Positions 40,234-60,262 of a DNA stretch of 64,000 bases are shown one piece after another. The position numbers and the translations under genes are program-made. The first letter of the stretch is position 1, and every line of letters starts with the position of its first letter. The notes below the pieces were generated by a model. It was not told the DNA's origin and searched no databases. It was given only the letters and a program-made list of their open reading frames with translations. The stretch lies in contig JAHHIL010000025.1 of the NCBI GenBank assembly GCA_019358975.1, forward strand, positions 1 to 64,000, read 5' to 3'. Source of the DNA: Trichocoleus desertorum ATA4-8-CV12. Its GTDB lineage: Bacteria > Cyanobacteriota > Cyanobacteriia > FACHB-46.

Positions 40234-40247
40234 CGTGACTTGATCCT

Positions 40248-40835: not shown

Positions 40836-41665
40836 AGCCGTCTCAGCATGCCCATGCCCATTGGGGTTTTACGGCCTACCCCGGCGTATAAAGCAAAGTC
40901 TGCTAAGGTGTTGATTTGTTTAATGGTCAGGGGTTCTACGTCACCCAGAATCCGAAAGCTCAGTGCCCCGACACAGCCAATAAACTTACTGCGTGCGTCC
41001 GCCACCATTTCTGTGCGGATGTCGAAGAAGCTGGGAAAAATAGAGACCAATAAATCCTCAGGAAACTCAATGCCACTGTACTGATTCCACCGCCGTAATA
41101 AACTATTGAAGACCAGTTCTCTCGTGGGCAGCGCAGAGTCATAATGAGCTTGACGAAAAGCAGTGGGGGTGCAAAAAGAGAAGTGAATTTGTCGCGCCTT
41201 CTGGTCTCCATTGGTACCGTCGGCTGCTTGTTGATAGAGTCGAGCATAGGTCGTGAAGTTGGTCCAAGGCTGAGTCGATTGCGGGGTACCTAAAACACTG
41301 GTGATTTGTAGATCAGCGGGTCCCAGATGCCAAGGCTGTTTAGGATTCAGGTTGAGCCAGAGCTGGGTGAGATGACCAAATAAGGAGTCATCGAGTAAAG
41401 AGATCCGCCACCAACAGGGAGTTCCCGCTGGAATGGCTTTTAGGTGCTCCCATTGCAGGGAGTGACTCCGTGAAGGGCGATCGCTCACTTGCAGCGGACT
41501 CAGCGTAAAAGCTTTATCCATCTGTTGTCCATGTAGGCGATCGCCTAAGGCTTGATCGACTGAACTGACAAGGGTCAGGAACAGAGCGTGGAGATGCTTC
41601 CCGCTCAGGTATCCTGCTGGAATGGGCGAGGTTGGCAGTAAGTTAAGCACCAGACTGTGTGGCAT
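40832..41665 (-). CDS. cas6: Cas6, crRNA-processing endoribonuclease
   Basis: 277 residues. The N-terminal strand SLVLNLLPTSPIPAGYLSGK and the C-terminal glycine-rich loop GVGRKTPMGMGMLRRL are family hallmarks; His26 (KHLH) is a candidate catalytic residue. Cas6 cuts in the repeat to leave the ATTGAAAC handle. The first 45-50 residues are related to, but clearly different from, a decayed cas6 start at 42560-42732. The gene follows hepT by 7 bases. Confidence 0.9.
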   Translation of the reverse strand: MPHSLVLNLLPTSPIPAGYLSGKHLHALFLTLVSSVDQALGDRLHGQQMDKAFTLSPLQVSDRPSRSHSLQWEHLKAIPAGTPCWWRISLLDDSLFGHLTQLWLNLNPKQPWHLGPADLQITSVLGTPQSTQPWTNFTTYARLYQQAADGTNGDQKARQIHFSFCTPTAFRQAHYDSALPTRELVFNSLLRRWNQYSGIEFPEDLLVSIFPSFFDIRTEMVADARSKFIGCVGALSFRILGDVEPLTIKQINTLADFALYAGVGRKTPMGMGMLRRL

Positions 41666-41672
41666 GGTTGTG

Positions 41673-42125
41673 TTAATCCTCCTCTAACGTATCGAGATAT
41701 ATCTGAATCTCTTTGATATAGGGCGGGTATTGCTGGAGGGCCTTTTGGAGCGCGTGATATACTTGCACAGGATTAATTTCGTCATATTCATGGGCAAGGA
41801 CGTTCCGAAAGCTACCAGAGGGTGCCAGTTGGGTTGCAAGTTCTGGAGCGATGAAGCCGTTTTCACCCATGAGGATAAAGGACTCAAAGTTTTTGAATGC
41901 TTGGGAGTCCGTGGGCACTAGATTGGCGGCTCGTTTGAGCAGTGTTTTATTGATGCTCAAGGCGGAGTCGATGATTGTCTCAAGCAAACGCTCGATCGCA
42001 GCCTGCCTAAAATCATCTTGCAGATACTCTTCAAGCGTGAGCGCTTCAAATTCCTTGAGCCGATCGATGCGCTGCACCATCCGGCTGAGCTTCTGAGCGA
42101 TCGCTTCTGGGTCTACTCTGCTCAT
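41673..42125 (-). CDS. hepT: HepT, HEPN-domain tRNA-cleaving toxin
   Basis: 150 residues from MSRVDPEA at 42125, all helical. The HEPN active loop RNVLAHEYD matches R-x4-H-x-Y: Arg107, His112 and Tyr114 from this start. In the well-studied cyanobacterial HEPN-MNT pair the toxin trims tRNA 3' ends and is silenced when MntA adds AMP to the Tyr. All three key residues are present, so it should be active. The ATG overlaps the mntA stop by 4 bases. The pair sits inside the cas operon between cas3' and cas6. Confidence 0.9.
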   Translation of the reverse strand: MSRVDPEAIAQKLSRMVQRIDRLKEFEALTLEEYLQDDFRQAAIERLLETIIDSALSINKTLLKRAANLVPTDSQAFKNFESFILMGENGFIAPELATQLAPSGSFRNVLAHEYDEINPVQVYHALQKALQQYPPYIKEIQIYLDTLEED

Positions 42126-42559
42126 ACCCCCCACCGCTGTAGCGCTTGAAGCACCTGTTCTCGCTGGGTATGGCGATACTGTTTCAGTTCCTCTTGTGTT
42201 TTAAGGGCTTGTTGCTGGAACTGGACGAACTCCCCTGGTGTTTTTTCATAGATCACCTGTCCATCACGGGCAACAAAGTGGGCCAGAATATCTGAGCAAG
42301 TGCTTAAATCAACCAGGTCGATCGTTTTGTCGGAGACTTGCAGCAGATGACAAAGTGTATCTAATAGATCGGAACCAGGGATCCAGGAGGATTTGCAATC
42401 GCTAGGATGGCTTGGTTCAGCCAGAAAGGCAAAATCCCAATCGCTGCTGAGGTCAGCCTCGCTTCTAACTCTAGAGCCAAAGAGAATAAGAAGTTTGAGA
42501 TTAGGGTGATCTCTAGCGAATCTGGTAGATGCAGCTTTGAGAATTCCAAGTTCGTTCAT
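42122..42559 (-). CDS. mntA: MntA, minimal nucleotidyltransferase antitoxin
   Basis: 145 residues from MNELGILKAAS at 42559. The nucleotidyltransferase signature is LLILFGSRVRSEADLSSDWD, that is G-S followed after 10 residues by D-x-D. A C-terminal helical segment follows. The known role is to AMPylate the HepT tyrosine and neutralise it. The open frame continues upstream to 42664, but those 35 codons come from the decayed cas6, so the start at 42559 is chosen. Co-transcription with cas3' is likely. Confidence 0.9.
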   Translation of the reverse strand: MNELGILKAASTRFARDHPNLKLLILFGSRVRSEADLSSDWDFAFLAEPSHPSDCKSSWIPGSDLLDTLCHLLQVSDKTIDLVDLSTCSDILAHFVARDGQVIYEKTPGEFVQFQQQALKTQEELKQYRHTQREQVLQALQRWGV

Positions 42560-42732
42560 AGTAAGTCTGGGTAGATTAAGATCGTTCACCTGAATTGAGA
42601 AATAAAGTGGAAGCTGGCGATTGGTAAAGGCTTGCTCAACAGAACTTGTAAGGGTCAGAAACAATGTATGGAGATGTATCCCGCTGGAATTGGAGATTGA
42701 GGCAGGAGATTGAGAACTAAACTATGAGGCAT
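42560..42732 (-). pseudogene. Decayed 5' end of a second, divergent cas6
   Basis: The minus strand starts ATG at 42732, 2 bases after the cas3' stop, and reads MPHSLVLNLLPQSPIPAGY, nearly identical to the start of the intact Cas6 (MPHSLVLNLLPTSPIPAGY). A frameshift occurs near codon 21; the other frame then gives HTLFLTLTSSVEQAF, matching Cas6 HALFLTLVSSVDQAL. Similarity fades at the mntA start. The DNA differs at many silent sites, so it is not a fresh duplication but an older or foreign cas6 allele. Confidence 0.85.
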
Positions 42733-42734
42733 AA

Positions 42735-45023
42735 TTAAACCACCCAAAACTCTTCTTCATCGGGGCACTTTAAGGCAACTCCAGCAGAAGCGATCGCTAG
42801 AATGCCAGATAAACTGGAGAAAAATAAATACTGTGCTGGTGAAGTAGAAGTATAGGATGAAATATGGATTGGATAACACTCTAATCCTTGCTTTTTCAAC
42901 CGTGCGATTGCCCAAGCATTTTTTGAACTTTCAGAAACAATGACACCTGGAATGAGTGTTGCATTGATTGCCTCTTTCAGAGATCTCGGTAACTCTGTTG
43001 GACGAGTGCTTTCCCCTTGCATTCTGGTAATACTACAACCTTCAAATGCAAACAACTTGCATAAATAAAGATTTTTGAAATCCTCTAAATCTTCAATTTG
43101 TAGAGAGAATGCTAATTTGTAAGGTTCTTCAGCCCGTTTAGTTAGGACGATGCGATCACCATCGCTCTCAAATTCAAGAAATCTTAGTAGGTGAATGGGA
43201 TCAAGATCCGTTTCTCCTACCTCATCTAATAGCAAGTAATGAGGATCATAGATTTTGACATTGCCAAATAAGCTGTCTCGAAATCGAAACAGTGGTGCAT
43301 AGCTTGATTTGAGGATGGTTGCATACTCCTGCAAATTCTTTGCAATTTCCTGATTCTGCTGAATGTATGCCTCTACTGTCTTATCAGATGTTAGCTGTTC
43401 AACGTCTTCAGGGCAGTAGACTTTTAGGTAACTCCATACAAAGCTTTTTCCACCTTTGACGTACTGCCAATCTTTCTGGATTTCCTTTATAGTCTTACGA
43501 GCAATTTCCTCCGCGCCTTTTAGGAGCTTCATGCGTTTGCGATAGAAATCCCAATCTCGTTTACCACCTAGTACACTTTGCAGGGTTTGATAAAGCTGAA
43601 TAATCAGAGATTCTTCAGGCAAGGTTTCAAGCAAATCCTCAAGTTCTAGTAAAGGCTTTGCGATTTCCAGAAATGCTTCTGAGCGCCAATAGATTTCTAA
43701 GAAGGGGCGCTTCATGCAGTCCAGGCTGTCTAGCATTTGATTGAGAGCTTCTCGCCCACTGGAGCAGTCCAAGTTTTCAATTCCTTGTTCCCAAGCTTGT
43801 TCAGGAAGATAGGCGATCGCTTCAGAGGGAATATTCGTTTGCTTCTTGCCCAATACTCGTCCCACACGACCAATACGTTGCCAGAAGGAGAAGCGATTGC
43901 GGGTTGAAAAGATAAGCCAATCTAAGTTTTGGCGATCGGGTTCAATGTCTCGTTCAAAGTTAAATCCAACATCAACTGTGCTGGTGGCAAGAATAACTTG
44001 CTTCTGTGCAGCTTGTTTACGTTGCTCGGTTTTAGTGTCGCCTGTAATACGCCCACAAAAATTTGCATACCCTCGTTCTCGCAAGCAAGTCGCAACTCGT
44101 CCTAACGTATCCTTTGCATCAAGAATGACTGCACCATTTTGATCAGGATAGTTCTCTAAGCGTTTGATCACTTCATCTGTGATTTCCGTAACAAACGCCT
44201 GCTTGTCTATCTGCTTACGAATTTCAAGACTAACAGCTGTTTGTGAAGGCTTTAGGTGATTAGTTTGAAATTCTCCATTGATGTCAGCAATTCTGACACC
44301 AACATCTCTTAACCGCTCTAAAGCCGCTTTACAGGCTAGTTCTGGTGTCGCTGTTAGAAGAATAACTTTGCGGTTGTATTGAAAATAGCGAAACTCTTTG
44401 GAGAGAGCTAGGTAGAAGAACAGGCTAACAAGCTGTTTAGCATCGTACAAGTGAAACTCGTCAAATATAACCGTAGCAAAACTGCTGTAAAATTCACTGG
44501 CGATGTTGACCCGATCCTTAGAACCATACTGGAAAAAGGCGGCGTAGTAGAAGATATCTGGATTAGTAACCAGCAAAATGGGTTTGCTAGCACATTCAGG
44601 AAAAAGCGTTGCAGGTTCACGTAACACGTTATAAAGCTTTTCTCCTGGACGCCCCGCTATACGTTCAGCAGCCCATTCCTTAATGTGTCTTGCAGAGGCC
44701 GCTTTGACAATGTGAGGTAGACCTGCATCTCGTACAAATTTTTCAGCAGCTTCGGTTTGTTGCTCAATCAGGGCGTTGGTTGGCGCAATGTATATAGCGT
44801 TGCGATCGCGGTTATGCCACAACACACTCAAACCAGCTTTAGTTTTTCCGGTTCCCGTAGGGGCAAGATCTAGAATGATGTCATTGTTTGCTGCTGCCTG
44901 AAATACATCAACCTGATGTTGAAGAGTTTGATGATTGAATGCTTTCAGTAATGGAGGTGGAAGGTCAGGGTTAGGGCAGGCTGCGATGCTGCGAGGTTCG
45001 AGATTAATTTTAAGACTGCTCAT
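42735..45023 (-). CDS. cas3: Cas3' helicase of type I-D (no HD domain)
   Basis: 762 residues from the ATG at 45023 (a GTG at 45038 adds 5). SF2 helicase motifs: Walker A APTGTGKT (residues 59-66 counted from the GTG), motif II DEFH (193-196), motif III LLTATP (about 228-232), and motif VI WQRIGRVGRV. There is no HD nuclease domain, as expected in I-D, where the HD is on Cas10d. It overlaps csc1 by 14 bases. It unwinds target DNA for the Cas10d nuclease. Confidence 0.95.
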   Translation of the reverse strand: MSSLKINLEPRSIAACPNPDLPPPLLKAFNHQTLQHQVDVFQAAANNDIILDLAPTGTGKTKAGLSVLWHNRDRNAIYIAPTNALIEQQTEAAEKFVRDAGLPHIVKAASARHIKEWAAERIAGRPGEKLYNVLREPATLFPECASKPILLVTNPDIFYYAAFFQYGSKDRVNIASEFYSSFATVIFDEFHLYDAKQLVSLFFYLALSKEFRYFQYNRKVILLTATPELACKAALERLRDVGVRIADINGEFQTNHLKPSQTAVSLEIRKQIDKQAFVTEITDEVIKRLENYPDQNGAVILDAKDTLGRVATCLRERGYANFCGRITGDTKTEQRKQAAQKQVILATSTVDVGFNFERDIEPDRQNLDWLIFSTRNRFSFWQRIGRVGRVLGKKQTNIPSEAIAYLPEQAWEQGIENLDCSSGREALNQMLDSLDCMKRPFLEIYWRSEAFLEIAKPLLELEDLLETLPEESLIIQLYQTLQSVLGGKRDWDFYRKRMKLLKGAEEIARKTIKEIQKDWQYVKGGKSFVWSYLKVYCPEDVEQLTSDKTVEAYIQQNQEIAKNLQEYATILKSSYAPLFRFRDSLFGNVKIYDPHYLLLDEVGETDLDPIHLLRFLEFESDGDRIVLTKRAEEPYKLAFSLQIEDLEDFKNLYLCKLFAFEGCSITRMQGESTRPTELPRSLKEAINATLIPGVIVSESSKNAWAIARLKKQGLECYPIHISSYTSTSPAQYLFFSSLSGILAIASAGVALKCPDEEEFWVV

Positions 45024-45807
45024 TGGTTCGTCCGCCACAAAACCTTAAGTTTGCGGGTAAAGTGAAATTGCCAACTCGCCAGGCGGCTCCATAGAATTGC
45101 AGATTTTTCAACAACGAAACGGGAGGTATGGAGATTAGGTCAAACGCAAGCAAGTTGAGACTACGGGGTATATCAGCCGCACTGAAATAAGCACTACAGG
45201 AGTATTCACCTTCTGGAAGCGGTATAACCGTTAATTCCTGCACAATATCAACCCGCACCTTACTGGTAAATTTGCCCACTCGAATATATTCAGGAAGTTC
45301 TTTGTTGCCAAACACAAGGGTCTGGAATCGACTACCTCGCTCAATAACTCGCAATCTTCCCGTTTGAGGAAAGTTACTTGGACGATAGGTATTTGGCTTC
45401 TTTCCAGTTCGTTTGAGCGGCAAGTCTTCCCGCGCGGTTGCGACCCGGTTGTTGGTCATGGCATACCAGTAGGAATCTGACAATGCATTGAACCGCTCAA
45501 ACCGGAATGATACATTCCCATCTTTGGGAAACGCCGGAAGGATATAGCATTGTTCTGCTAACGGAACCAAGTCTTCTAGATATTTGGGCTGCCCTGTATC
45601 TTTTCCTGTGAGGCGATAGGGCGATTGCGCCCAGCCTAGTGCATAAGCCAAAGCATAGTTGCCGATCGTACCCTCGGTGTAATAGGTGTCTGATAGTTCT
45701 CGGGAAGCGAAAAAAACGGGTTCAGCACACCATAGTTCGATGAGCCGGGCGGTTTGAAAGGATGGCCTAGACTCAGGAGAATTCAATGAAATTTCTAGTT
45801 GTGGCAT
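45010..45807 (-). CDS. csc1: Csc1 (Cas5-type subunit of I-D Cascade)
   Basis: 265 residues. It starts with a RAMP-like strand, ARLIELWCAEPVFFASRELSD, and ends in a glycine-containing strand, LRFCGGRT. Position between csc2 and cas3', length and the I-D context identify it as Csc1, which caps the 5' handle of the crRNA. It starts 3 bases after the csc2 stop and overlaps the cas3' start. Confidence 0.9.
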   Translation of the reverse strand: MPQLEISLNSPESRPSFQTARLIELWCAEPVFFASRELSDTYYTEGTIGNYALAYALGWAQSPYRLTGKDTGQPKYLEDLVPLAEQCYILPAFPKDGNVSFRFERFNALSDSYWYAMTNNRVATAREDLPLKRTGKKPNTYRPSNFPQTGRLRVIERGSRFQTLVFGNKELPEYIRVGKFTSKVRVDIVQELTVIPLPEGEYSCSAYFSAADIPRSLNLLAFDLISIPPVSLLKNLQFYGAAWRVGNFTLPANLRFCGGRTNEQS

Positions 45808-45809
45808 CG

Positions 45810-46823
45810 TTACTCTTCCTGGTTTCCATTACGTCCTCTCTTCTTGCTTTCGCTTTTCACTTTGCGAAGTGATTCGTAAGTTTTATCAAGGCGGTTGAGA
45901 AACGTTTCTTGTTCAGCCAAATCCCAATGGCGATCGACATCAGCAATTAATTCATTGAGTTCATCAACAGACAATTGCATGGAAATTCCTCGCTTGTTTG
46001 TCCAGTTAGCAATGACTGATTGAGTAACGGAAACAAGAGCGTCAGTGTTGAATGGATGCTCGATCGGCTTACCATCAGCAATCAGCTTGTCGTACACGCC
46101 CTGCACTAATTCCAGAGAACTGGGCAGTTCAGCAATGCCGCCGAAGACACCAAGAATCTGATTCTCCATCCGTCCAACTCGGCTTGAAACGGCTCCATAG
46201 CGACTGGTCAGTAGAATGTTGCCGAGAGCGTAACGCATTTCATCAGCCGTTACATCCTTAAAGGTGACAATATCGAGAAAATGAACACCTGGTTTAATGT
46301 ATTCACTGGTATTCAGGGCAGTCGAAGGGTTGCCCTTCTCATCGCGCATTGTGCCATTCTCAAAGATGGCGTTGATGGTGCGATCGCCAGTTAATTCGGT
46401 TGCAGGCAGAACGCTAAATGCATCTTCAGTCCAGACACGGCTTTTCTGCGCTCCTTCACCACCAGCTGCAAACCCATAAAGGAAGCAGTCGATACACATT
46501 TCACAAGGAGCGTTTGTGTTAAGCGCACAGATAGCATTGCTCTTAGGCGCAGTGTAAAGCAGACCATTCGATCGCAAAAACTCTCTTCCTTTCCGTCGCT
46601 CTGGCGCAATCTGCTTACGTTTCGTCATGACTAGACGAGGAATCGATTCAGTGTTTTCAATCCCTGCCTGAACATATTCACTGCACATCGGTTCGCCTGT
46701 TCCTTCCGTGCGGAAAATCGTTTCTGATTGTGTAGTGCGAAAAACGACAACCCCGATCGTGCGACCTTTAGGAAAGTTTTCGTAGCTGGATGCGAGAAAT
46801 GGTTGCAACCTCTCAATTGTCAT
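45810..46823 (-). CDS. csc2: Csc2 (Cas7 backbone subunit of I-D Cascade)
   Basis: 337 residues. Typical blocks are IGVVVFRTTQSETIFRTEGT, a zinc-type cluster in NAPCEMCIDCFLYGFAAGG, and LLTSRYGAVSSRVGRMENQI. Multiple Csc2 copies line the crRNA spacer and cut or hold target nucleic acid. AGGAG lies 9 bases before the ATG. It is 12 bases after cas10d and 3 before csc1, so the operon is tight. Confidence 0.95.
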   Translation of the reverse strand: MTIERLQPFLASSYENFPKGRTIGVVVFRTTQSETIFRTEGTGEPMCSEYVQAGIENTESIPRLVMTKRKQIAPERRKGREFLRSNGLLYTAPKSNAICALNTNAPCEMCIDCFLYGFAAGGEGAQKSRVWTEDAFSVLPATELTGDRTINAIFENGTMRDEKGNPSTALNTSEYIKPGVHFLDIVTFKDVTADEMRYALGNILLTSRYGAVSSRVGRMENQILGVFGGIAELPSSLELVQGVYDKLIADGKPIEHPFNTDALVSVTQSVIANWTNKRGISMQLSVDELNELIADVDRHWDLAEQETFLNRLDKTYESLRKVKSESKKRGRNGNQEE

Positions 46824-46834
46824 TGGAATAACTC

Positions 46835-49615
46835 CTATTTTGTTACAGTTTCTAGTTCAGTCTGGGCAGGTTGAGTTTGAGCTTTCAATTCTTGACGAGC
46901 TTGTTGTAAGAAGAACAGATAAGCTGCCTCTAGTGTTTTGCTGTCGGTTAATAACCGCTCTGGGCGGGAGTGATAAACGTCCTCAAATAGCTGGCGCAAC
47001 ACTTGATAAAACTGTTTAATCTGCTCATATTTTGTTGCGCCAACTCCGTGTTCTCGAATGCGATCGAGCCGTTCATGATATTCCTGCACGAGTGCAGCAA
47101 AAATCGTTTCCCAATCCATGTGGGATTTTCGCGATCGCACGGCTTTAATAAATTCAGAAAAGGGTTCAGCCTGTGACGTACGCCGAAAGGAACTACCACG
47201 CAATTTGGCTACTTCGGCAATATGCGCCGCTTGTTTGAGATAGTGTGAAACGCGATCGTGTTCTTCTGACATGAGGCTCCTTAATAGAGTTGTTAAAGGT
47301 TCTCGAATACGAGTCCAGATGATTTCCAGGTTTGGATCATCCTGTTCCCGCAAAATCCACCGTAACAAGACGTGATAGAGGTTAAGGGGACGTTGAGCGG
47401 CACGAGCCAAATCGTAAAGACAGTCATCTTTCTTCTGAAGGCTGGCAACACTAATAACCAGTTTCCCCACGCACTGCAATCGCTCTAAAACCTCTTCCGC
47501 AGTTATGCTAGTTTTTTGTTCCTGCTGCGATAGATGCCCTTGCCGTTGATAAATACCCGAACCAAGCAAAGGTTGCAATGCAGAAGGAAGCCCCTCAACT
47601 CTGCCAAATATCTCCCACTCTGGTTTAACTTCTAAATTGGCACTTAAAATAAAAGGAAAGCCAAAATCAAACGCTAGAGAGAGTTCTAATGCCAAACGTA
47701 GCGACTTAAGCAAAGCGACTGAACTGTTAACGTCACCCCAAACAACAGGAATGGTAACTGTGGAGAAAGTAAACTCTGGGCGTTTTGGTAGTGAAAACCC
47801 CTCGAATTTGTCAGATTCAAACGCTATTTGATTATCACGGTATAACTGCAATTCATTAACTTTAACTGCTCCACCGTCAGCGTTCGTGTTTGCAGTATCT
47901 TTAAGCCATTTACGCCAAATGCCCTGGAGCTCAGAACTGGAACCTTTTGGTAGCGAGAAATGTAAATAATAAGTGTGAACTGGGGCTTCACCACCAGATT
48001 TTGATTTCTTCTTAGCATTAGGGAAGCCAGCACCAACTTGCATTAGCTGATAACCCAGAGCTGCTAAGGAATCAGCACATCGAACAGGATCACCACTAGA
48101 GCCTCCTCGTAGACGATTAGAGAATACTTGTACCTTTGTTTCAGGAGGCATTTGAGGTTTCCTAAGCTCACTGACCTCAGCACGAATAGAACCTAACGAT
48201 GATCTTTGGCTGGGATTAGCTTCAATATAGGTAGATAGCTCCTCAAAAAAACTCTGCTTGCGTGAAATAGGTAGATTGAGAAGATATCTAACAGCCTCTA
48301 TCAAGCTCTTTGAGACTTCTGAGGTACTTGTCGTCTCATCTGTTTTTGTCAGACGCATTTGGAAAGATTCTTTTATAGCCTCTTGAACACCATTCATTCT
48401 CCGTGTAGAAGCCTTACCTGCAAATAAACAGCGTCCATATTGTTCTTCAAATGCCTCTAGAGCTTTGCACTGTTGATCTGATAAGCCCATGTGATTAGAA
48501 ATTCTTTTCCAAACCTGGTTTGGTGTGAGTTGTGGCTTGACTTGCCGATAACTGACATATGCTGCCTTCAAACCTTCAGAGATAGCGAACTCCTCAGCTG
48601 TGGAAATAGGAACCAAGCCCATTTTGGCTGCATGAGTAACTGCATCCTCACCAGCTTTTCTACAGTATTTTTCAATGGATTCTGCTACTTTGCTAGCCTT
48701 GTAATTTGAGTATTTCTTAGCTAATAAGATATCAACTCGCTCAAGTGCTGCTTCTGGATCTTGTTGAATAGCTTGATAATCAACCTTAATCCCATTTGTA
48801 CTTTTGTCTGTGATTAATTGTTCAATGTTGCTACCAAAAACGCGATCGATCCGTTTTTGCCAATACTTCGCGATTTCGATCGTCAAGTCCTCTTCAGGAA
48901 ATGCTTCACCCTCAAAAATTTGACCGTCCGGATCAATTGCAAGCGTATGTAACCCGTGTTTGTGCAGAACTTCCTCACAAGCAAACAGTAGTAATGATGT
49001 TAAATACCCTCGATCTTCTGATAGCCTGACCTTGAATAGTCTGCTAGGACGACCAAATGCAACTGTTAATTCGTTTTCAACTTTCCGAATCCGCTTATCT
49101 TCTTCAATGCCCAAATCAAAGAGATCGCCACCAATCAGCATGGCTGACCAGCGTTTAATTTGATCTTTAACCTGGGGATCTTCTCCGATAAAACGCATTC
49201 CATCTGAGTTGTTATGACCTGAATGGCTCTCAATCAAGCGACGAACGAGTTCTAGATCGTCGTCTGTCTTCACTAATTCATCTACACCTGCTCGGCTGAG
49301 TTGTTCTTTTAGGAAGGAGCGATCGCGTGCCAACTTTTTAACACTACCCCCACCTTCAATTAACTTGTTCAAATCATGAACAGCCGTTGCAGCCAAAATC
49401 AAAGTCCGTTTCTCTTCAGATACTTTTGCAATTTTGCTGACAGTAAGAACAAATTGACAAGCTGAATCTAAATGTTCAGCTAAAGTTCGCCCTTTACGCG
49501 ATCCATACTGTCCATGCGCTCCATGTAACTCATACAGAGTAGGACGAATCTCTTTAAAGTAGAGTTCATCTAAACCCTCTGGTTCTTGCTTTAAGAGTCG
49601 ATGACGCTTCAACAT
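46835..49615 (-). CDS. cas10d: Cas10d (Csc3), large subunit with HD nuclease
   Basis: 926 residues. The N-terminal HD domain has AEHLD (His48), TAVHDLNKL (His80-Asp81) and IESHSGHN (His131 and His134). A zinc-like middle part and a degenerate palm region follow, without the GGDD of type III Cas10, so no cyclic oligoadenylate synthesis is expected. Cas10d is the I-D marker and provides the DNA-cutting nuclease next to the Cas3' helicase. It is complete and leads the Cascade genes. Confidence 0.95.
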   Translation of the reverse strand: MLKRHRLLKQEPEGLDELYFKEIRPTLYELHGAHGQYGSRKGRTLAEHLDSACQFVLTVSKIAKVSEEKRTLILAATAVHDLNKLIEGGGSVKKLARDRSFLKEQLSRAGVDELVKTDDDLELVRRLIESHSGHNNSDGMRFIGEDPQVKDQIKRWSAMLIGGDLFDLGIEEDKRIRKVENELTVAFGRPSRLFKVRLSEDRGYLTSLLLFACEEVLHKHGLHTLAIDPDGQIFEGEAFPEEDLTIEIAKYWQKRIDRVFGSNIEQLITDKSTNGIKVDYQAIQQDPEAALERVDILLAKKYSNYKASKVAESIEKYCRKAGEDAVTHAAKMGLVPISTAEEFAISEGLKAAYVSYRQVKPQLTPNQVWKRISNHMGLSDQQCKALEAFEEQYGRCLFAGKASTRRMNGVQEAIKESFQMRLTKTDETTSTSEVSKSLIEAVRYLLNLPISRKQSFFEELSTYIEANPSQRSSLGSIRAEVSELRKPQMPPETKVQVFSNRLRGGSSGDPVRCADSLAALGYQLMQVGAGFPNAKKKSKSGGEAPVHTYYLHFSLPKGSSSELQGIWRKWLKDTANTNADGGAVKVNELQLYRDNQIAFESDKFEGFSLPKRPEFTFSTVTIPVVWGDVNSSVALLKSLRLALELSLAFDFGFPFILSANLEVKPEWEIFGRVEGLPSALQPLLGSGIYQRQGHLSQQEQKTSITAEEVLERLQCVGKLVISVASLQKKDDCLYDLARAAQRPLNLYHVLLRWILREQDDPNLEIIWTRIREPLTTLLRSLMSEEHDRVSHYLKQAAHIAEVAKLRGSSFRRTSQAEPFSEFIKAVRSRKSHMDWETIFAALVQEYHERLDRIREHGVGATKYEQIKQFYQVLRQLFEDVYHSRPERLLTDSKTLEAAYLFFLQQARQELKAQTQPAQTELETVTK

Positions 49616-49737
49616 CTCAGTTCTATTCTAATAGTTGAGTCTGTAGTGACAGAGTGATTAATGAGATGAACGCTAAACAGTATGAAAATCTCTCTATTTT
49701 GAATCGCCTCTGGTAATATTCCCGTCTAGCAATCACT

Positions 49738-49941
49738 CTAACTAGAGCGTTTGGTAACAGCGATCGCCCGATACTCATACTGGCGATCGCTCCCCCTACG
49801 TTTTTCAATTTGGTAGCCATGTTTCTTAGTAGCAATATGCATCGTTGCAGAAAAGCGGTGCCCCACTTCCTGCACCAGTTCCCCAGTTGAATGCCAGTGC
49901 CCATCACTCAGAACTGAAGACAACCGTTTCAATTGTGTCAT
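49738..49941 (-). CDS. Small winged-helix DNA-binding protein at the head of the cas operon
   Basis: 67 residues from MTQLKRLSSVLSDGHWHSTG at 49941. HWHSTGELVQEVGHRFSATM forms a helix-turn-helix, and GYQIEKRRGSDRQYEYRAI is the wing. The same layout is seen in small regulators near cyanobacterial cas operons. It lies about 120 bases upstream of cas10d on the same strand and is divergent from the WYL gene, so it may regulate either or both. The longer frame to 50043 is not needed. Confidence 0.75.
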   Translation of the reverse strand: MTQLKRLSSVLSDGHWHSTGELVQEVGHRFSATMHIATKKHGYQIEKRRGSDRQYEYRAIAVTKRSS

Positions 49942-49988
49942 CACAAACTTCCTGGGTAAACCGCCATATCTGCACTTAAAGCTAGTGC

Positions 49989-50023
49989 TGTGATAAAATA
50001 TGCTTACAAAACGAAGTATCACA
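49989..50023. promoter_or_regulatory. Inverted repeat in the shared cas/WYL promoter region
   Basis: TGTGATA at 49989-49995 and TATCACA at 50017-50023 are inverted, spaced by 21 bases, between the divergent starts at 49941 and 50069. This is a plausible operator for the WYL protein or the winged-helix protein. No experimental consensus is known to me. Confidence 0.5.
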
Positions 50024-50068
50024 CAGACTTCTAAGAAGTGCAACTAAATTTCTTGATCTTCTCTCAAA

Positions 50069-50920
50069 ATGCCTAGAAAGAAGGAAACGTTAACGCTATC
50101 TGTTCCGCCCGGTACAAAAGAAAAGCTAGAGGCGATCGCTGGACGGTTAGACTTGCGTTGGGGTGAAAGCCCTAGTGCCTCAAAATTAGTTGCAGCAATT
50201 GCTCAAGAAGAAGTAGAAGTTGGAATGTTTCGCCCTTTGATCCCAGGGCAGATTGATGCTTTACGGCAATCAGTCAAACTTCTGATTGATGCAGGCTGCA
50301 TCGAAGCAGCAAAAAGTGTAATTACAATCTTGTTAGAGCAAGGAGATCTAGAAGCTCCATTACGACAAACGTTGCTGCAACAACTTACCCAGTCGATCGC
50401 TGCATGGCGAGAGCAAATTGACCAGTACATCGCACAAAAGCAGCCATTTTGGGTTTCCTACCGTAACTCACAAGGAACATTGCTTGAATTTAATGCGCGT
50501 TATGCCGAAGTTCACTTCCAAGAAAAGCGTTTCTATTTACAAATTTGGTGCGAAGAAACGGCGGATGTTGAAGCAGATATTCCTGATTTACCGGAGCTTT
50601 GGCACAACCGCTGCCTCCGGTTCGATCGCATTCAGGACATTCAGCCTATTGAAGGAGAATGGCGAGGAAAACTTGATTCCATAAAAGTGTACTTACAATT
50701 TAAGGGATGGATGGCCAATGCGTATGAACCTAAGCCAGGGGATGATGAAAATCTAGTCATTGGTGATGTTCGTCAAGTTGCCCGTCGAGTTGCTAATCCC
50801 TTCTGGCTCATTCGAGAAGTCTCTCGCTACTGGGAAAATTGTGAAATTATTGCACCAGATGCGCTGCGCGACCGCTTCCGGCAAAAATTTCAAGCTCTAT
50901 CAGCCCTGTACGATGTCTAA
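50069..50920 (+). CDS. WYL-domain regulator of the I-D system
   Basis: 283 residues. An N-terminal DNA-binding part (PRKKETLTLSVPPGTKEKLE) looks like a ribbon-helix-helix, with a helical linker (IDALRQSVKLLIDAGCIEAA). A WYL-type beta barrel follows, with WVSYRNSQGTLLEFNARYAE, FYLQIWCEETADV and a C-terminal PFWLIREVSRYWENCEI. In Synechocystis the I-D CRISPR1 array is controlled by a WYL protein (Sll7009), and this gene has the same relation to the cas operon. It is divergent from the cas genes. Regulation is inferred from that precedent. Confidence 0.85.
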   Translation: MPRKKETLTLSVPPGTKEKLEAIAGRLDLRWGESPSASKLVAAIAQEEVEVGMFRPLIPGQIDALRQSVKLLIDAGCIEAAKSVITILLEQGDLEAPLRQTLLQQLTQSIAAWREQIDQYIAQKQPFWVSYRNSQGTLLEFNARYAEVHFQEKRFYLQIWCEETADVEADIPDLPELWHNRCLRFDRIQDIQPIEGEWRGKLDSIKVYLQFKGWMANAYEPKPGDDENLVIGDVRQVARRVANPFWLIREVSRYWENCEIIAPDALRDRFRQKFQALSALYDV

Positions 50921-50986: not shown

Positions 50987-52039
50987 CTACTCATAAGACA
51001 TCATTGTAAGATTCTGCATCAATTGCTCAGTAGGAACCCAACCCTGGTGCACATGGAGAGTGTGATGAACCCCGTTTAATGTGGTCGCTGCAAGCACTTT
51101 ACCTTGCGCTTTGGCCCAATCAAACCACTGTTTGAAGTCAGTTGCTAGTGCAGAAGTGGCAGATCCCGCGATAGACAGGCTCCAGCCTTGGGCAATGGCT
51201 TGATGTAGATAGGCGATCGGATTACGGATGGAGTGTCGCTGTTGCTGGTGTTGGAGGTAGGCGATCGCGGCTGGGACTCGGTCTGGAAACTGAGCGATCG
51301 CTACCTTCAGTGACTTTGGTAGTGAAGAACCGGAGGGCCGCCCGAGCGCTTGGGCGACAGCCTCAATGAGTTCTGGGAATTCTAAGTCTTGATTGTTCAA
51401 AAAATTCCCAGAACTAGGGACGCAAGAGTTGTCTTTAGCAGAATTGCTCAACTCGGTACTGGGAACAGAACAGCGATCGCTCGACTTTGGCAACTCGGAC
51501 AACTCCCCAGCTTTAACGGTTGCCACTGTTTCAACTCTTTCAGCTTCTGCAACAACCACTGTTGCTTGTTCTGAAAAAGAAATCTCTGAAGAGGTCTCTG
51601 AATTTGAGGTGCGATTACTTCGCACGTCGAGGCGATCGCTGTTCACGGATCGAGGTGTGATGAGATCGCACAAGTTGCCCGCAAACGCCTGCAATCTCTC
51701 ATAGTTAATGCGATAGAACATCACGCGCTTGTACTGAGTAAGCCAATGTTGAGCCGTTTGGATGAGACCCAATTTTTTCAGGTTGGCGATCGCTTTTCTT
51801 AAGCCGTACTCGCTCATCCAAGGAAACTGTTTTTGCCAAGCTTTGAGGGAGTTATAGATCCACTTCACCCCATTGCTCAGCCAACCCCTCGTTTCCGAGT
51901 TGACGGTCCAATAGTGCAGTTGTTGCAGGAATGCCCCTTCATCAAATCCGGTGCCTGTTCTGCCCAGTGCTTGTTTAAGGAGCCCGGTGAGTTGAGGGGG
52001 AATGGGAATGGAATTGACTTCCAAGGTTTTGGAGTTCAT
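50987..52039 (-). CDS. Replication-initiator-like (DnaD/phage replisome-organiser-like) protein
   Basis: 350 residues. The front FLQQLHYWTVNSETRGWLSN and WIYNSLKAWQKQFPWMSEYGLRKAIANLKKLGLI is a winged-helix layout seen in plasmid and phage replication initiators. A long low-complexity linker (about 125-215) is rich in Ser and Glu. The C-terminal DnaD-like helices (YLQHQQQRHSIRNPIAYLHQAIAQGW) resemble replisome organisers. It may mark the edge of a plasmid- or ICE-like block. Function is inferred from layout only. Confidence 0.6.
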   Translation of the reverse strand: MNSKTLEVNSIPIPPQLTGLLKQALGRTGTGFDEGAFLQQLHYWTVNSETRGWLSNGVKWIYNSLKAWQKQFPWMSEYGLRKAIANLKKLGLIQTAQHWLTQYKRVMFYRINYERLQAFAGNLCDLITPRSVNSDRLDVRSNRTSNSETSSEISFSEQATVVVAEAERVETVATVKAGELSELPKSSDRCSVPSTELSNSAKDNSCVPSSGNFLNNQDLEFPELIEAVAQALGRPSGSSLPKSLKVAIAQFPDRVPAAIAYLQHQQQRHSIRNPIAYLHQAIAQGWSLSIAGSATSALATDFKQWFDWAKAQGKVLAATTLNGVHHTLHVHQGWVPTEQLMQNLTMMSYE

Positions 52040-53914: not shown

Positions 53915-54709
53915 ATGACTAAATACCTTGATGTATTGGCTTTTAAGCCGATCGCAGACCCGATTACCGATTCCCAGGAAACGCAACTGCAACCCACTCA
54001 GGAGCCTTTGAGCCCAGAAGCTACGACTTCCCTTATCACTTCTCACGAAGGTGGTGCGAATTCTCATTTAGTCCTGTGGCGACCGAGCGAGCCGCAGTTC
54101 ACGAAAGCGATCGCGGAGTACTACGGCGTATCCCGCAAGTCTGTCCAGCAGTGGTTTCAAAAGATCAAAGAAGCGTGCCCTTGGTTTAGTGAGGTGGATT
54201 TAAGACTGCCCGACGATCGCTACACCCCGCTTTGCATCGAACTCATGGGTGATTACCGTCTCTCAGGGCTACCGCTTGAGGCTTGGAAAGCTAAAGTTTG
54301 GGAGCAAAACCCAGACCTCGTGGCGGCTTATCAAATCTCAAAGCCGCCTGCTGAGCAGGTTCAAACTGCTGCTCCCACCACCGCTATCACGCTAAGGCCC
54401 TCCGAGACCCCGATCGCTGTGCCGCAGGTTGAAAGCTTGAACCTGAGCGTCATTGACTCCACTCAACGGCTGACCGAGGCGATCGCGAGCTTAAACACGA
54501 CGCTGCAACAGTTTGTGACCAACGACCAAACGCTGGAAGCTGCTTTAAGAGAACAGGCTAGCCAGAAGGGCACCCGTCTCGGCACTGAACTCGCCATTAC
54601 CGAAGTCGGCAGCATGGTGCAAGCCACGGAAGCGGTTCGGGTGGAACTGGCAAAAAAGTTGGGTCTGCTGTCGAATCCCAGCGAATCTCCACCGTCCCCC
54701 TCTATCTGA
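53915..54709 (+). CDS. Helix-turn-helix protein with possible frameshifted membrane tail
   Basis: 264 residues in the zero frame. After a polar lead, TKAIAEYYGVSRKSVQQWFQ is a helix-turn-helix; residues about 85-140 form a small domain; a Pro/Thr-rich linker and a heptad-like helix (VIDSTQRLTEAIASLNTTLQ) follow. The zero frame stops soon after the slippery site A-AAA-AAG at 54652-54658. A -1 shift there continues for 57 codons to 54828 and encodes VPLYLIVLVLAVAVLGGWAW, a clear membrane segment. Either a programmed frameshift makes a membrane-bound form, or a mutation cut off the tail. The head probably binds DNA. It leads a rightward cluster that ends with an FtsK/HerA-like ATPase. Confidence 0.65.
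   Translation: MTKYLDVLAFKPIADPITDSQETQLQPTQEPLSPEATTSLITSHEGGANSHLVLWRPSEPQFTKAIAEYYGVSRKSVQQWFQKIKEACPWFSEVDLRLPDDRYTPLCIELMGDYRLSGLPLEAWKAKVWEQNPDLVAAYQISKPPAEQVQTAAPTTAITLRPSETPIAVPQVESLNLSVIDSTQRLTEAIASLNTTLQQFVTNDQTLEAALREQASQKGTRLGTELAITEVGSMVQATEAVRVELAKKLGLLSNPSESPPSPSI
54652..54658 (+). other. A-AAA-AAG slippery heptamer in frame (candidate -1 ribosomal frameshift site)
   Basis: Zero-frame codons are gcA AAA AAG, which is the strongest bacterial -1 slippery sequence (as in dnaX). Reading in -1 from 54658 gives an uninterrupted frame to the TAA at 54826-54828. The zero frame stops at 54709. No strong downstream hairpin was identified by eye. Confidence 0.55.
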
Positions 54710-54863
54710 TTGTCCTGGTCCTCGCGGTTGCTGTGCTAGGTGGCTGGGCTTGGATCGGGGGCGATCGCCCAACGCTCAGCCTAGAAAACCCCTGCCCTAG
54801 GCATTCACTGTTTTGTCCTAGTGACTAATTATCCACTAGGACTCATTTCCTGAGGTACCCCCA

Positions 54864-55058: not shown

Positions 55059-55877
55059 ATGACGCCCAATCCTTACCTCCAACACCTGATTGCAGACCCA
55101 ACTTTCGGTTATCTCTTCCCCCATCGCTTGACTTTAGCGGCTTTCGGGGTGCCGAATGACTATCATTTGCGCAAGCACTACCCGCGCCTTGTGGAAGGCC
55201 AGCATTACCTAAAAATCCGAGGAACGGACCATGTGGAGCGCTTGTTCTACACTCTGGTGGGTTTGTTGATGCTTGCGGATCTCGTCAATACCCCCCAGTC
55301 ACAAGCGTTTAAGCAAGCTTTAGTAACGCACACTCAACCTCCGGGAGCGATCGTTCCGGCTCCCAGCCCTTCCCTCACGCCATACCCTTCGGGTGGTGCC
55401 GCCTATTCGACCCCAGACTCCACCTTCCATGAACCTTACCCAGAGTCCTATCCGACCCCTGCGCCCACCTCAGTTGCGCCCTATCATCTTCCGGCGATCG
55501 TTTGGGTGAGCGGAAGAGAGCAACCGAGCGATCGCCCGCTGCCCCGCTTCGCCACGAACATTCCCACCCCTCAAGACACCGCTGCTCTCATCTTTGAAGC
55601 CCAACGGGTTGCGGGTGAGCAAGCCCAACAAACCGCCCAAGCCCTCCTACAAGCCCAACGCCTGGTGGCGGAGCAGCAACCAACGGAAATCCACGTTAAC
55701 GTCAATCTTTGGAAGCGCTGGGATGACTGGCTCTCCCGTCAAGATACGTGGGCCGTGCTGCTGATCGTGACCTCGCTGGTGGCAATGGCAGGCATCGGCA
55801 CCTACCTACTCGTCAGCGCGGCTGTGCGCCCTACTCCCGCCCCGCTGATTGTGTCCCCTCAAAGCCAAGGCAGGTAA
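55059..55877 (+). CDS. Membrane-tethered protein with DNA-binding-like head
   Basis: 272 residues in three parts. The head (about 1-90: FGVPNDYHLRKHYPRLVEGQ, ERLFYTLVGLLMLADLVNT) resembles phage antirepressor N-termini. A Pro/Ser/Tyr-rich linker (about 95-185) and a Gln/Ala helix follow. A membrane segment, about 231-256, lies near the C-terminus (WAVLLIVTSLVAMAGIGTYL). The plan is the same as the frameshifted 53915 product: DNA-binding-like head, disordered linker, C-terminal anchor. The head would face the cytosol. Not a known family to me. Confidence 0.6.
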   Translation: MTPNPYLQHLIADPTFGYLFPHRLTLAAFGVPNDYHLRKHYPRLVEGQHYLKIRGTDHVERLFYTLVGLLMLADLVNTPQSQAFKQALVTHTQPPGAIVPAPSPSLTPYPSGGAAYSTPDSTFHEPYPESYPTPAPTSVAPYHLPAIVWVSGREQPSDRPLPRFATNIPTPQDTAALIFEAQRVAGEQAQQTAQALLQAQRLVAEQQPTEIHVNVNLWKRWDDWLSRQDTWAVLLIVTSLVAMAGIGTYLLVSAAVRPTPAPLIVSPQSQGR

Positions 55878-55881: not shown

Positions 55882-56358
55882 ATGCGACGAATGGTGAAGT
55901 ATTCTCCGAGTCCCGATGAATCCCGTCCTTCTCTAAATGCTCATCTCGTTACCCCCCGCACGCGCGAGCTGAGCGAAACTGAACTCAACACGGAACTGGA
56001 GCGCCTCAAACGCCAACAGCGCGGCGTGAAACTGGCGATCGCGGAAGCCGAGTTAGAAAAAGAGCGCATTAGCCTGACTCAAAAGCGGGTAGAAGTGGGC
56101 ATTGCCAAGGTTAACCTCGAGTCCACCAAATGTGATTTCCTCGCTGCCGCTCACAAACTCGTGGAAAAACGGGCCAGAGTGGCGATCGCCAGCGATAATG
56201 CTCAGTCGGCCCTCAGCGAGTGGAGCATGAACCAGGATGCCATCCGAGAGAAGGTACAAAGCATCCACCTCTCGGTTCAGGAAGCGACCCAAAAGAACGT
56301 GGACAAGGAAGATGACCTGCACCTGCGAGGAGTGGTATCTCGCTTCTCTTTACGCTGA
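55882..56358 (+). CDS. Coiled-coil hypothetical protein
   Basis: 158 residues from MRRMVKYSPS at 55882, 4 bases after the previous stop. Residues about 30-110 are almost all charged helix with heptads (LNTELERLKRQQRGVKLAIA and on), a coiled coil. There is no membrane segment. Its stop overlaps the next start (TGATG), so the cluster is tightly coupled. It may link the membrane proteins to the ATPase through helical contacts. Confidence 0.6.
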   Translation: MRRMVKYSPSPDESRPSLNAHLVTPRTRELSETELNTELERLKRQQRGVKLAIAEAELEKERISLTQKRVEVGIAKVNLESTKCDFLAAAHKLVEKRARVAIASDNAQSALSEWSMNQDAIREKVQSIHLSVQEATQKNVDKEDDLHLRGVVSRFSLR

Positions 56359-56645
56359 TGCTCGATGGAGCGGGATGGACCCGAAACACGTTCATGAAAC
56401 GCCTCGCGATCGCCTTGTCTTGCCTGCTCTGCCTCAACCTGCTGACGATGGGACTGCGCTGGCTGGTGGTCAGCCAAAGGCTTTCCTTACCCAATGTGGG
56501 ATTGATCGTCCTAGTAGGAGTAGGTATGGTGACCTTGACCTACTTTGCCACGCTGGAAGCCAGTCCCCATTATTCCCTCTATCACCGGGAAGCCAAAATC
56601 TACGCAACAGCGGCCTTAGCGGGTGTGCTGTTGGGATTACTCTAA
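56358..56645 (+). CDS. Small integral membrane protein
   Basis: 95 residues. The start ATG at 56358 overlaps the previous TGA by one base. Three hydrophobic stretches: about 14-32, 46-62 and 80-95. A later in-frame ATG at 56394 would give an 83-residue form. No family recognised. It lies directly before the ATPase gene and its end nearly touches it. Confidence 0.55.
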   Translation: MLDGAGWTRNTFMKRLAIALSCLLCLNLLTMGLRWLVVSQRLSLPNVGLIVLVGVGMVTLTYFATLEASPHYSLYHREAKIYATAALAGVLLGLL

Positions 56646-56670: not shown

Positions 56671-58980
56671 ATGACCGCTCGCGATCGCCCTTCAAATCAT
56701 ATCCTAGTGGTTCTGGCCCTCCTGTCGCTGTTTAGCTTTGTGGGGATTGGCGATCGCTCCAATCAATGGCTCTGGGTCTCTCTGCGAGGGGTCGGCTGTG
56801 GAGCCGCGCTGGCGGCGGCTTACGGCTACTCCCAGGAAGAAGAGACTATCCAGGCCACGGATGAACATACCCGCCTGCTTGAGGTTGCCAACGAAGTTAG
56901 AGAGGGGTATGAGTGGCAGCAGTACAACCTCCAATTGCAGCATCGACGCGAGATTGAGCAGTATGAACAAGCCCTGATGCAACTCCAAACCCAACTGCAA
57001 GCCGCAGAAGTCGTGAACTTTGAGCAGATGGAAGCAGAGCGAGAACGAATTGCCCTCGACTATGATCGCCTGCAAAAAGAACGGGAACGCTTGACCCAGG
57101 AACAAGCCTTATTGGAAGAGCATTACGATCGCCAACAGCAAGGCCTCGAAGCCCGAGAAGCGGCATTAAGCGAGCGTGAGGAAGAGTTTGAAGCCGCCAT
57201 GCGAGAGCAAATTGCCCAAGAGCGCGATCGTCTCCAAGCCCAAGAAGATGCCCTGAATGAACGGGAACGCTTGATGGTGCAGCACTTTGAGCAGGAATGG
57301 GCCGAACGCGAGGAATTCTACGCCGCGATCGCCGATGCCGCCGTGCAGGAGTCTTACAACCTCAAAAAACCAGACCTGCCCCGAGGGAGTGGCCCTGAAG
57401 AACTCCTGGCGCGCGAAGCGATTCGCTGCTTGTATGAGCATGGCATTGTGGTGAAAAAGCCCTTTGTCCGACCCCTGCCGCGCGATCGCTTTGAGCTGTG
57501 CTTTGAAGTGCTACCCGTGCTGGTGGATGGCAAACTCAGCACCCCGATTCGTTCTAGTGGCGAAGCCCTCAAGAAAATTAACAAAGACCTGCTTAAATCG
57601 CTGCGGATTGCTGTGCCCGGTTGTTGTGCGGACCCGATTATAGAGCCGATCGATGGGGGGTTAAAGCTCATCTTTGATGTCTCGGGCACTGATTGGGACG
57701 CTCTCGAGCGCGATCGCAAAGCTCGAGCCGATGCCATTCAAGACCCCGACCCGAGTCACCTCGCCACCTTCGTCAAGGAAAATCCGCAAATCTGCTTGAT
57801 GGGAGACTCTGGGGAAGGCAAGACCACCTTGATTAACAACCTGATTCTCCTGATGGAGCAAGATTTGGGTGACAATGTGGGCTTGATTCTCACTAACCCC
57901 AAACCCAACGAAGAAACAGACCTCAGCAAGCTCAAGTATGCCGATTTCGACTCCAGCATCTTTGGCTTATTAGAAGCCGCCACTGAAATCCTCTATCGCC
58001 TCGATTTGAACACCCATGCTCTGCTCAAGCGCCGCACCGTCCCCGACAATCCCCTCCCCGTCTTTACGCCGCTGATTTACTTCTTTGATGAGTTCTCCGA
58101 GATTGCTGGGGTGTGGAATCGCTGCAAACCAGAAGTGATGGAAGAGACGCTAGATACCTTCGCGGCCACGCTACCCCCTGAGAAACTGCATGTGATGGAT
58201 TTCATCCGCAAGCGCGTGTCTCCGAGCTCCTTTGCTGGAGATTTGCTGAAGTTCTGCTGGCGGGTGGGACGCACCGAAAAAGTCAAGCTGCTGGTCGCCG
58301 GACAAAATCTCAAAGCCTCGAGTATTGGGGTATTGATTACCGACTTAAATCAAACGGCGATTCTGTATCTCGGTGAAGCCATTCGAGAAGGGATTGAAAA
58401 GCGAGTCTCTTCCTGGCAAAAAGAATCCCTCAACCAAGAGTATGCCCATCGCAGTCAAAAAGTGGCAGAGAAAAAAGCCAATCGCTTTTATGGCTTATTT
58501 ATCCCCAAAGGCAGTAAAGCTTATTTTTCTACGCTACCGGATGAATCCACTTTTGCTCAAGATAACTCAGGGGTTGAGACGGTGCAGCGCCAAGATGAGC
58601 CCGCACCGGATGCACCCACCGCACCGGATTTAGTGCAAGAGTTAGAACATTTATGGCAACTGCCTTCTAAGGATAGTGACTCCCACCGCACCGACGAAGA
58701 CCGCACCCGCACCAATGCGGTGCCGAGCCAGTTTGACCCCCTCGACCCTGAGATTAACCCTCAGCTCACAGAAGTGGTTCTGAAGAACTTCGATGTCTAC
58801 AAATCCCAAACCAAAGTCATTGAAATGGTGTGGAATGTGGGCAAGTCTGGCACCAGCAATAAGTACCGAGCCGCCAAGTGGAAATTCAGGCGCATTCTCA
58901 AAAAGCACGATCGCAACCTACCCGGAAAACAATGGGGTGAAGACCCGGATGACTTCAAGAAATTCCACGAGATTATCTAG
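56671..58980 (+). CDS. Membrane-anchored coiled-coil FtsK/HerA-like ATPase
   Basis: 769 residues from MTARDRPSNH at 56671. Two membrane segments lie at about 10-26 and 33-50. A coiled coil covers about 60-215. A middle domain (about 245-345) leads to the P-loop: Walker A GDSGEGKT at 378-385 and Walker B LIYFFDEF at 468-475. A DFIRKR and VAGQN-type sensor segment follow. The C-terminal 130 residues carry a Pro/Asp-rich linker and a basic winged-helix-like end (VWNVGKSGTSNKYRAAKWKF) that could bind DNA. This order (anchor, coil, motor, DNA-binding tail) recalls FtsK and conjugative coupling ATPases, but no relaxase is nearby. A second degraded copy of its C-terminus follows. Confidence 0.75.
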   Translation: MTARDRPSNHILVVLALLSLFSFVGIGDRSNQWLWVSLRGVGCGAALAAAYGYSQEEETIQATDEHTRLLEVANEVREGYEWQQYNLQLQHRREIEQYEQALMQLQTQLQAAEVVNFEQMEAERERIALDYDRLQKERERLTQEQALLEEHYDRQQQGLEAREAALSEREEEFEAAMREQIAQERDRLQAQEDALNERERLMVQHFEQEWAEREEFYAAIADAAVQESYNLKKPDLPRGSGPEELLAREAIRCLYEHGIVVKKPFVRPLPRDRFELCFEVLPVLVDGKLSTPIRSSGEALKKINKDLLKSLRIAVPGCCADPIIEPIDGGLKLIFDVSGTDWDALERDRKARADAIQDPDPSHLATFVKENPQICLMGDSGEGKTTLINNLILLMEQDLGDNVGLILTNPKPNEETDLSKLKYADFDSSIFGLLEAATEILYRLDLNTHALLKRRTVPDNPLPVFTPLIYFFDEFSEIAGVWNRCKPEVMEETLDTFAATLPPEKLHVMDFIRKRVSPSSFAGDLLKFCWRVGRTEKVKLLVAGQNLKASSIGVLITDLNQTAILYLGEAIREGIEKRVSSWQKESLNQEYAHRSQKVAEKKANRFYGLFIPKGSKAYFSTLPDESTFAQDNSGVETVQRQDEPAPDAPTAPDLVQELEHLWQLPSKDSDSHRTDEDRTRTNAVPSQFDPLDPEINPQLTEVVLKNFDVYKSQTKVIEMVWNVGKSGTSNKYRAAKWKFRRILKKHDRNLPGKQWGEDPDDFKKFHEII

Positions 58981-59668: not shown

Positions 59669-60262
59669 ATGGTTGAAGAACCAATGCTGCCTCAGTATCA
59701 TAGGGTGAATGTTGATGGGGCTGAAACATCATCTGTTGCTGGGGTGATTGGGGCGATCGCGCTTGCTTCCTGCTCGCCTCAAACCCGCTTGTCAAATCCG
59801 GTGTCGGTTCAAAACCGTGAAACTCAGCTTCAAACCGTTCCCCTCAATCAAGCCGATATCGTCATGGGGCAAACCGTTTATGTTCCCATTTATTCGCATA
59901 TCTATCATCACAATAGCCAAGATCGGGTCATGAATTTATCAGCGACCCTTAGCGTTCGCAATACAGACTCGACCAATTCAATCATCCTTACCTCTGTGAA
60001 GTACTACGATACAGATGGTCAACTCATGCGGCAAGAGATTGAGCGTCCAGTGGCCCTAAAACCCCTGGCTTCCACTAGCTTCTTTGTGGCAGCAGATGAT
60101 ACGAGTGGTGGGTCAGGTGCAAACTTTGTGGTGGAATGGGTTGCAGAAAAAACGGTGTCAGAACCTGTGATTGAAGCAGTCATGATCAACACCTCTGGAG
60201 GGCAGGGAATTTCATTTATTAGCCCTGGGAAAGTGGTTGAGCAGTATGGCGATAGAAACTAG
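59669..60262 (+). CDS. DUF3124 protein, probable lipoprotein
   Basis: 197 residues. The N-terminus has GAIALASCSPQ, a lipobox (L-A-S-C), although the leading region before it is less hydrophobic than usual, so the start could be altered. The mature domain matches the cyanobacterial DUF3124 pattern: GQTVYVPIYSHIYHH, RVMNLSATLSVRNTDSTNSI and ASTSFFVAADDTSGGSGANF. Function unknown. Confidence 0.85.
   Translation: MVEEPMLPQYHRVNVDGAETSSVAGVIGAIALASCSPQTRLSNPVSVQNRETQLQTVPLNQADIVMGQTVYVPIYSHIYHHNSQDRVMNLSATLSVRNTDSTNSIILTSVKYYDTDGQLMRQEIERPVALKPLASTSFFVAADDTSGGSGANFVVEWVAEKTVSEPVIEAVMINTSGGQGISFISPGKVVEQYGDRN

Follow-up and report, generated by a model that had tools for sequence, protein, structure and literature searches.

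Conserved -1 frameshifts are rare in bacteria, apart from those of insertion sequences, of phages and of a small number of housekeeping genes. The gene discussed here starts at position 53915 of the forward strand of contig JAHHIL010000025.1 (assembly GCA_019358975.1) of the cyanobacterium Trichocoleus desertorum ATA4-8-CV12; positions 1-64,000 of this contig are the whole stretch of DNA that was analysed and are referred to as the window. The candidate shift in this gene resembles that of E. coli dnaX (tau/gamma) in its A_AAA_AAG site, its -1 direction, the single type of tRNA-Lys(UUU) and the production of two forms with a common N-terminal part. However, the dnaX shift yields a shorter protein and depends on two stimulators, a Shine-Dalgarno element and a hairpin, whereas the shift proposed here would lengthen the protein by a transmembrane (TM) segment, and no conserved stimulator was found. 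E. coli copA is another bacterial -1 shift that chooses between a membrane and a soluble protein with a common N-terminal part; its polarity is reversed, as the zero frame of copA encodes the membrane ATPase and the shift produces a soluble chaperone, and the proteins are unrelated. The slip site of phage lambda gpG/gpGT is reportedly G_GGA_AAG, the site that is used by 18 members of the 53915 family; however, the lambda shift adds a tail-tube-binding domain, and the proteins, neighbours and host element are unrelated. Comparison of the 53915 gene with its homologues makes it very probable that programmed -1 ribosomal frameshifting in this family yields a soluble and a membrane-anchored form, and the shift appears to decide whether the protein is located in the cytoplasm or the membrane.

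The relevant features of the gene are the following:

53915-54709, forward strand: zero-frame gene, predicted soluble form (264 amino acids; translation and family alignment), with a helix-turn-helix-like head (residues ~54-140), a linker, a coiled coil (~175-248) and a short acidic tail
54652-54658, forward strand: slippery heptamer A_AAA_AAG in the zero frame, read as gcA AAA AAG (sequence and synonymous-codon choice)
54652-54828, forward strand: -1 frame extension of 58 amino acids with the stop codon TAA at 54826-54828
54694-54753, forward strand: predicted TM helix of 20 residues, VPLYLIVLVLAVAVLGGWAW, in the -1 frame (hydropathy)
54707-54709, forward strand: zero-frame stop codon TGA, after 16 sense codons 3' of the heptamer

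A first-pass annotation, which was made from the letters alone, had placed the heptamer at this position of the zero frame and described a strongly hydrophobic -1 frame that stays open as far as 54828. The sequence agrees with both statements and their coordinates are right; the best 19-residue Kyte-Doolittle mean of the hydrophobic segment is 2.52. The zero-frame stop codon falls within the coding sequence of the -1 frame helix, and the extension is reachable only via a -1 shift; its frame contains no ATG, GTG or TTG before the TM segment. The junction peptide of the fusion is predicted to read ..ELAKKVGSAVESQR.

Profile searches of 390 cyanobacterial genomes led to 27 places in 20 genomes, and the family considered below has 27 distinct members, with repeated copies dropped and the copy on plasmid AP017309.1 of Leptolyngbya sp. 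NIES-3755 included. All 27 homologues belong to Cyanobacteriota, identity to the window protein falls to about 21-28% across the family, and later homologue searches yielded just one weak outgroup besides these members. No relatives of the gene were found in phages and viral contigs, a plasmid search returned one relative only, and the head protein had no match in PADLOC, PHROGs or NCBIfam. L051 (E 3.8e-4), a distant relative with neither heptamer nor -1 TM segment, was kept as an outgroup and not counted as a family member.

In 26 of the 27 members, the zero frame carries A_AAA_AAG (8 members) or G_GGA_AAG (18 members) 9 to 16 codons before the stop, and in 25 members the heptamer occurs together with a -1 TM segment. 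None of 154 control genes from the retrieved loci has a heptamer in its last 20 codons, compared with 26/27 family members; for both heptamer types in the zero frame, the controls contain 7 per 44,877 codons, and 0.003 are expected per 20 codons. The observed frequency thus greatly exceeds what chance would give. The codon preceding the heptamer encodes P, V, L or A, yet its third base is always G or A as required. Since the amino acid before the site varies and the required bases are constant, the heptamer is selected at the nucleotide level. The Gly codon of the heptamer is always GGA, which makes up 19% of Gly codons, and given the amino acids, the heptamer codon set has a chance of 0.017-0.041 per gene. 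An alignment of 25 proteins has 5 invariant columns, among them K248, the second lysine of the heptamer, and GGGAAAG is the longest invariant block in a DNA alignment of 11 members.

As slip site and hidden anchor are kept in 25 of the 27 genes, the slip is neither accidental nor due to a sequencing error. An explanation of that kind would make the 53915 copy a mutated or misread descendant of a gene with one frame through the membrane segment, and it could refer to the run of six A, a common site of insertions and deletions, and to a tail without a start codon of its own. The first-pass annotation had reasoned that a conserved slip site and two-frame layout would mark a programmed shift, and homologues with one continuous frame a mutated copy. 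The alignment speaks for the former: the split layout of those 25 members comes from independent assemblies, including the complete plasmid AP017309.1, and none of the 27 homologues has the tail in the zero frame. In addition, the host genome contains a second, divergent copy, L002 on contig 33, with the site G_GGA_AAG. The homologue L006 of Cyanobacteria bacterium FACHB-502 (64% identity) has an identical heptamer and the same split, followed by a -1 hydrophobic segment of quite different sequence. An error or mutation is already refuted by the homologues, and we give it practically no probability.

If the shift is programmed, it could take place during transcription rather than translation. 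Runs of A are prone to polymerase slippage, and the window's subclade as well as the L005/L031/L033 group use A_AAA_AAG. However, 18 of the 26 sites are G_GGA_AAG, in which the longest run is three bases and a polymerase slip in the right phase has no basis; without a homopolymer run at these sites, slippage of the transcript cannot explain the whole family. Six A are also a short run for known cases of transcriptional slippage, such as Thermus dnaX with a run of 9 A, and both motifs are perfectly suited to a tandem -1 slip of the paired tRNAs. Transcriptional slippage is therefore a very unlikely source of the second product. Ribosomal slippage would be consistent with the tRNA repertoire: the only tRNA-Lys anticodon found in the host genome is UUU (in a tRNA list that is incomplete, with a few expected species missing), and a tRNA-Lys gene with the anticodon CUU is likely absent. 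With tRNA-Lys(UUU) alone, a single tRNA would decode both AAA and AAG, and this tRNA pairs well with AAA after a slip. A halovirus G-T shift is reported to use G_GGA_AAG, a site that has also been described as highly prone to shifting in E. coli.

A TM-like segment is present in the -1 frame of 26/27 members (mean hydropathy 1.78-3.09, plus the member L012), whereas hydropathy of the +1 frame is never above 1.05 in the family. Past the heptamer, the -1 frame extends for 46 to 80 codons, and dinucleotide-shuffled tails of 200 bases had an open -1 frame with a TM segment in 0-5% of shuffles. The mean net charge is -1.0 for the acidic zero-frame tail versus +2.2 for the basic segment that precedes the TM helix in the -1 frame. 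ATG, GTG or TTG codons are absent ahead of the helix in 19 of 25 members, and the tail thus lacks a start of its own; the remaining tails have a start near the stop, which is TTG or GTG in five members and ATG in one. Those six starts would suit a model in which ribosomes terminate and reinitiate at the overlapping stop and the -1 TM segment is a small membrane protein of its own, as would the annotation of AP017309.1, which contains a 33-codon open reading frame in the -1 frame that starts inside the TM segment. However, such a model has no start to offer in the other 19 members, the starts that are present often cut into the TM segment, and the conserved heptamer and the basic residues before the helix would be left unexplained. 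Like transcriptional slippage, reinitiation is very unlikely. In the plasmid AP017309.1 (L007, 8706-8809), LEP3755_65670, the zero frame, and LEP3755_65660, a 33-codon part of the -1 TM tail, are annotated as separate hypothetical proteins, which hides the fusion.

Pairwise dN/dS of the tails is mostly 0.3-0.7 where dS is unsaturated, with the exceptions of L004/L014 (near 1) and the decayed L017 pair (>1). This bears on the possibility that frameshifting is real, but that the shift or the stop serves regulation or quality control and the cell breaks down the TM product. Proteases of the FtsH type could remove frameshift products that have hydrophobic ends, and as no strong stimulator was found the -1 product may be minor. 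However, hydropathy, basic flank and tail length are kept while residues diverge, and a tail dN/dS mostly below 1 also argues against a product made for degradation, so that we regard this explanation as unlikely, albeit the least unlikely of the alternatives.

Programmed ribosomal frameshifting with an anchor as its purpose would work as follows. Most ribosomes would pass A_AAA_AAG, finish the short hydrophilic tail and stop, thereby producing a soluble head with its coiled coil. With tRNA-Lys(UUU) on the AAA and AAG codons, a fraction would slip back by one base, pair anew with AAA AAA and read about 56 more codons, which encode a basic stretch and one TM helix. The shifted product would share head and coil with the soluble form but would be anchored in the inner membrane, its head probably facing the cytoplasm, a topology that fits the basic residues preceding the helix according to the positive-inside rule. 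The putative coiled coil may allow both forms to co-assemble, and slip frequency would therefore set the number of anchors per complex. Such a complex might serve segregation or transfer by keeping the DNA of the element at the membrane, close to the FtsK-like ATPase that is encoded downstream; we give this tether role a chance slightly below even. The suggestion of the first-pass annotation that one mRNA gives a soluble and a membrane-bound form of the same head is supported by the conservation in 25 of 27 members.

Several observations weigh against this interpretation or parts of it. The first-pass annotation had proposed to look for a stem or pseudoknot after 54658, but no conserved downstream structure emerged consistently when 40 to 80 bases of 26 members were folded at two offsets. 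The 80 bases downstream of the window's own site fold worse than shuffles (z 0.93); the most marked fold was obtained for L006 (z -3.7), and a few others are near -3. A downstream hairpin or pseudoknot is not obligatory in bacteria (PMC4066793). A Shine-Dalgarno-like stretch upstream of the heptamer is weak and was seen in only part of the family:

54637-54645, forward strand: weak Shine-Dalgarno-like stretch, UCGGGUGGA, possible 5' stimulator (duplex -5.9 kcal/mol), in the window's subclade only

This duplex is not exceptional inside the gene (rank fraction 0.21). GGGUGGA/GAGUGGAG is found upstream of the site in most of the window's subclade and AGGGAGA in L033, neither of which is unusual within the genes concerned, and a Shine-Dalgarno-like element is missing in most G_GGA_AAG members. 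In E. coli, these heptamers shift infrequently when stimulators are lacking, so the anchored form may be scarce, and the slip rate could be low. Two members depart from the pattern: L012, from a draft genome that is 72% complete, has G_AGA_AAG instead of a canonical heptamer and keeps the TM segment, and L017 keeps G_GGA_AAG, but its -1 frame leaves the family pattern in the middle of the helix and the TM segment is lost at a rearrangement. Inspection by eye of the open frames in the next 5 kb of L017 revealed no FtsK-like gene, and the 3' part of this element therefore appears to be lost; both exceptions look like decay. The pS/pN signal of the tails is weak to modest and is partly confounded by the start of the next gene, which overlaps in some members, and the members are kin, so that the counts given above are not independent events. 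Finally, the assignment of the head stays below curated cut-offs: HTH_23 matches 9 of 25 members under the threshold, with 0.006 as the best E value, the window protein is below the cut-off, and other helix-turn-helix models match single members. A structure model of the zero-frame protein, built on two alignment rows, is poor (mean pLDDT 50), with helices at residues 60-70, 74-87 and 179-248. DNA binding by the head is likely. Sub-threshold matches to Gag_p10 in 9 members were dismissed as chance.

The tree of the heads disagrees with heptamer type, and at least three type changes are forced by well-supported branches. L029 and L022 have heads that are 67-76% identical to that of the window protein, combined with a coil and a G_GGA_AAG tail from another group, while L031 and L033 have coil and tail as in L005 and a different head. 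At least four coil types without recognisable kinship occur in the family, each of which ends in heptamer, short tail, stop and -1 TM segment. It is tempting to speculate that heptamer, about 13 codons and -1 TM segment form a mobile 'frameshift anchor' cassette, which is kept by selection and was recombined onto different heads and unrelated coils on cyanobacterial plasmids, its slip rate setting the balance between free and membrane-tethered subunits that bind DNA in an FtsK-linked segregation or transfer machine. We hold this idea tentatively, with somewhat less confidence than the tether role itself. Two members of the family lie 7 kb apart in L101 (G162 contig 427, 5665-6585 and 13607-14398), one with G_GGA_AAG and one with A_AAA_AAG, a pattern that adjacent insertion of two related elements would produce.

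The genes around the 53915 gene resemble those of a plasmid-like element:

50987-52039, reverse strand: replication module with a DnaD-like helicase loader or replication initiation protein (PHROG 6493, E 6.6e-21)
55059-55877, forward strand: protein with a different head, a linker and a C-terminal TM segment in one frame, hydrophobic from residue 230
55882-56358, forward strand: charged coiled-coil-like protein
56358-56645, forward strand: small protein with two hydrophobic segments
56671-58980, forward strand: FtsK/SpoIIIE-superfamily ATPase with an N-terminal hydrophobic segment and a long coiled coil (profile against PDB)

The ATPase matched FtsK/SpoIIIE 4nh0 (E 2.5e-8), EccC (1.2e-7) and FtsK (2e-6) in a profile search against PDB, and no Pfam or NCBIfam model was above its cut-off; the Walker residues G383, K384, D473 and E474 are invariant. 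In 15 of 19 places, the frameshift gene opens a run that leads, after 0.8-3.1 kb, to an FtsK-like ATPase gene downstream of it and on its strand. Together with its relatives in these 15 elements, the ATPase may represent a system for plasmid transfer or segregation that has no name yet. The 55059 protein does have the C-terminal membrane segment that the earlier reading had ascribed to it. Proteins of this type, with a different head and a one-frame TM segment, occur in 8 of 18 loci examined, and in loci without one the frameshift product would be the sole such protein found.

The elements carry replication genes of the CyRepA1 family or DnaD-like ones, Uma2 nucleases and, in two cases, a relaxase. 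Several of them resemble cyanobacterial plasmids of the CyRepA1 type in that they encode a replication protein of the CyRepA1 family (NF042913, E 9.3e-97 in L096) or a MobP-like relaxase, whereas the replication protein of the window's element is DnaD-like and the CyRepA1-like cluster is found in other loci only. A literature search yielded no account of a frameshifted gene on CyRepA1-type plasmids and no report of the 53915 family; the search did not extend to the cluster tables in the supplement of the GeneTack survey of 2013 (PMC3711429). The family is compact and clean, with two interchangeable slip sites and mostly no start for the hidden tail; it reveals membrane segments concealed in genes whose products are currently listed as soluble hypothetical proteins, and it points to an FtsK-linked system of cyanobacterial plasmids that has not been described so far.

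Immediately next to the plasmid-like element, a gene run that looks like CRISPR-Cas occupies 39232-50920 of the window and includes a WYL-domain regulator at 50069 (PADLOC WYL, E 2.4e-12). Downstream of the ATPase gene and probably outside the element, 59669-60259 encodes a DUF3124 protein (E 1.4e-52).
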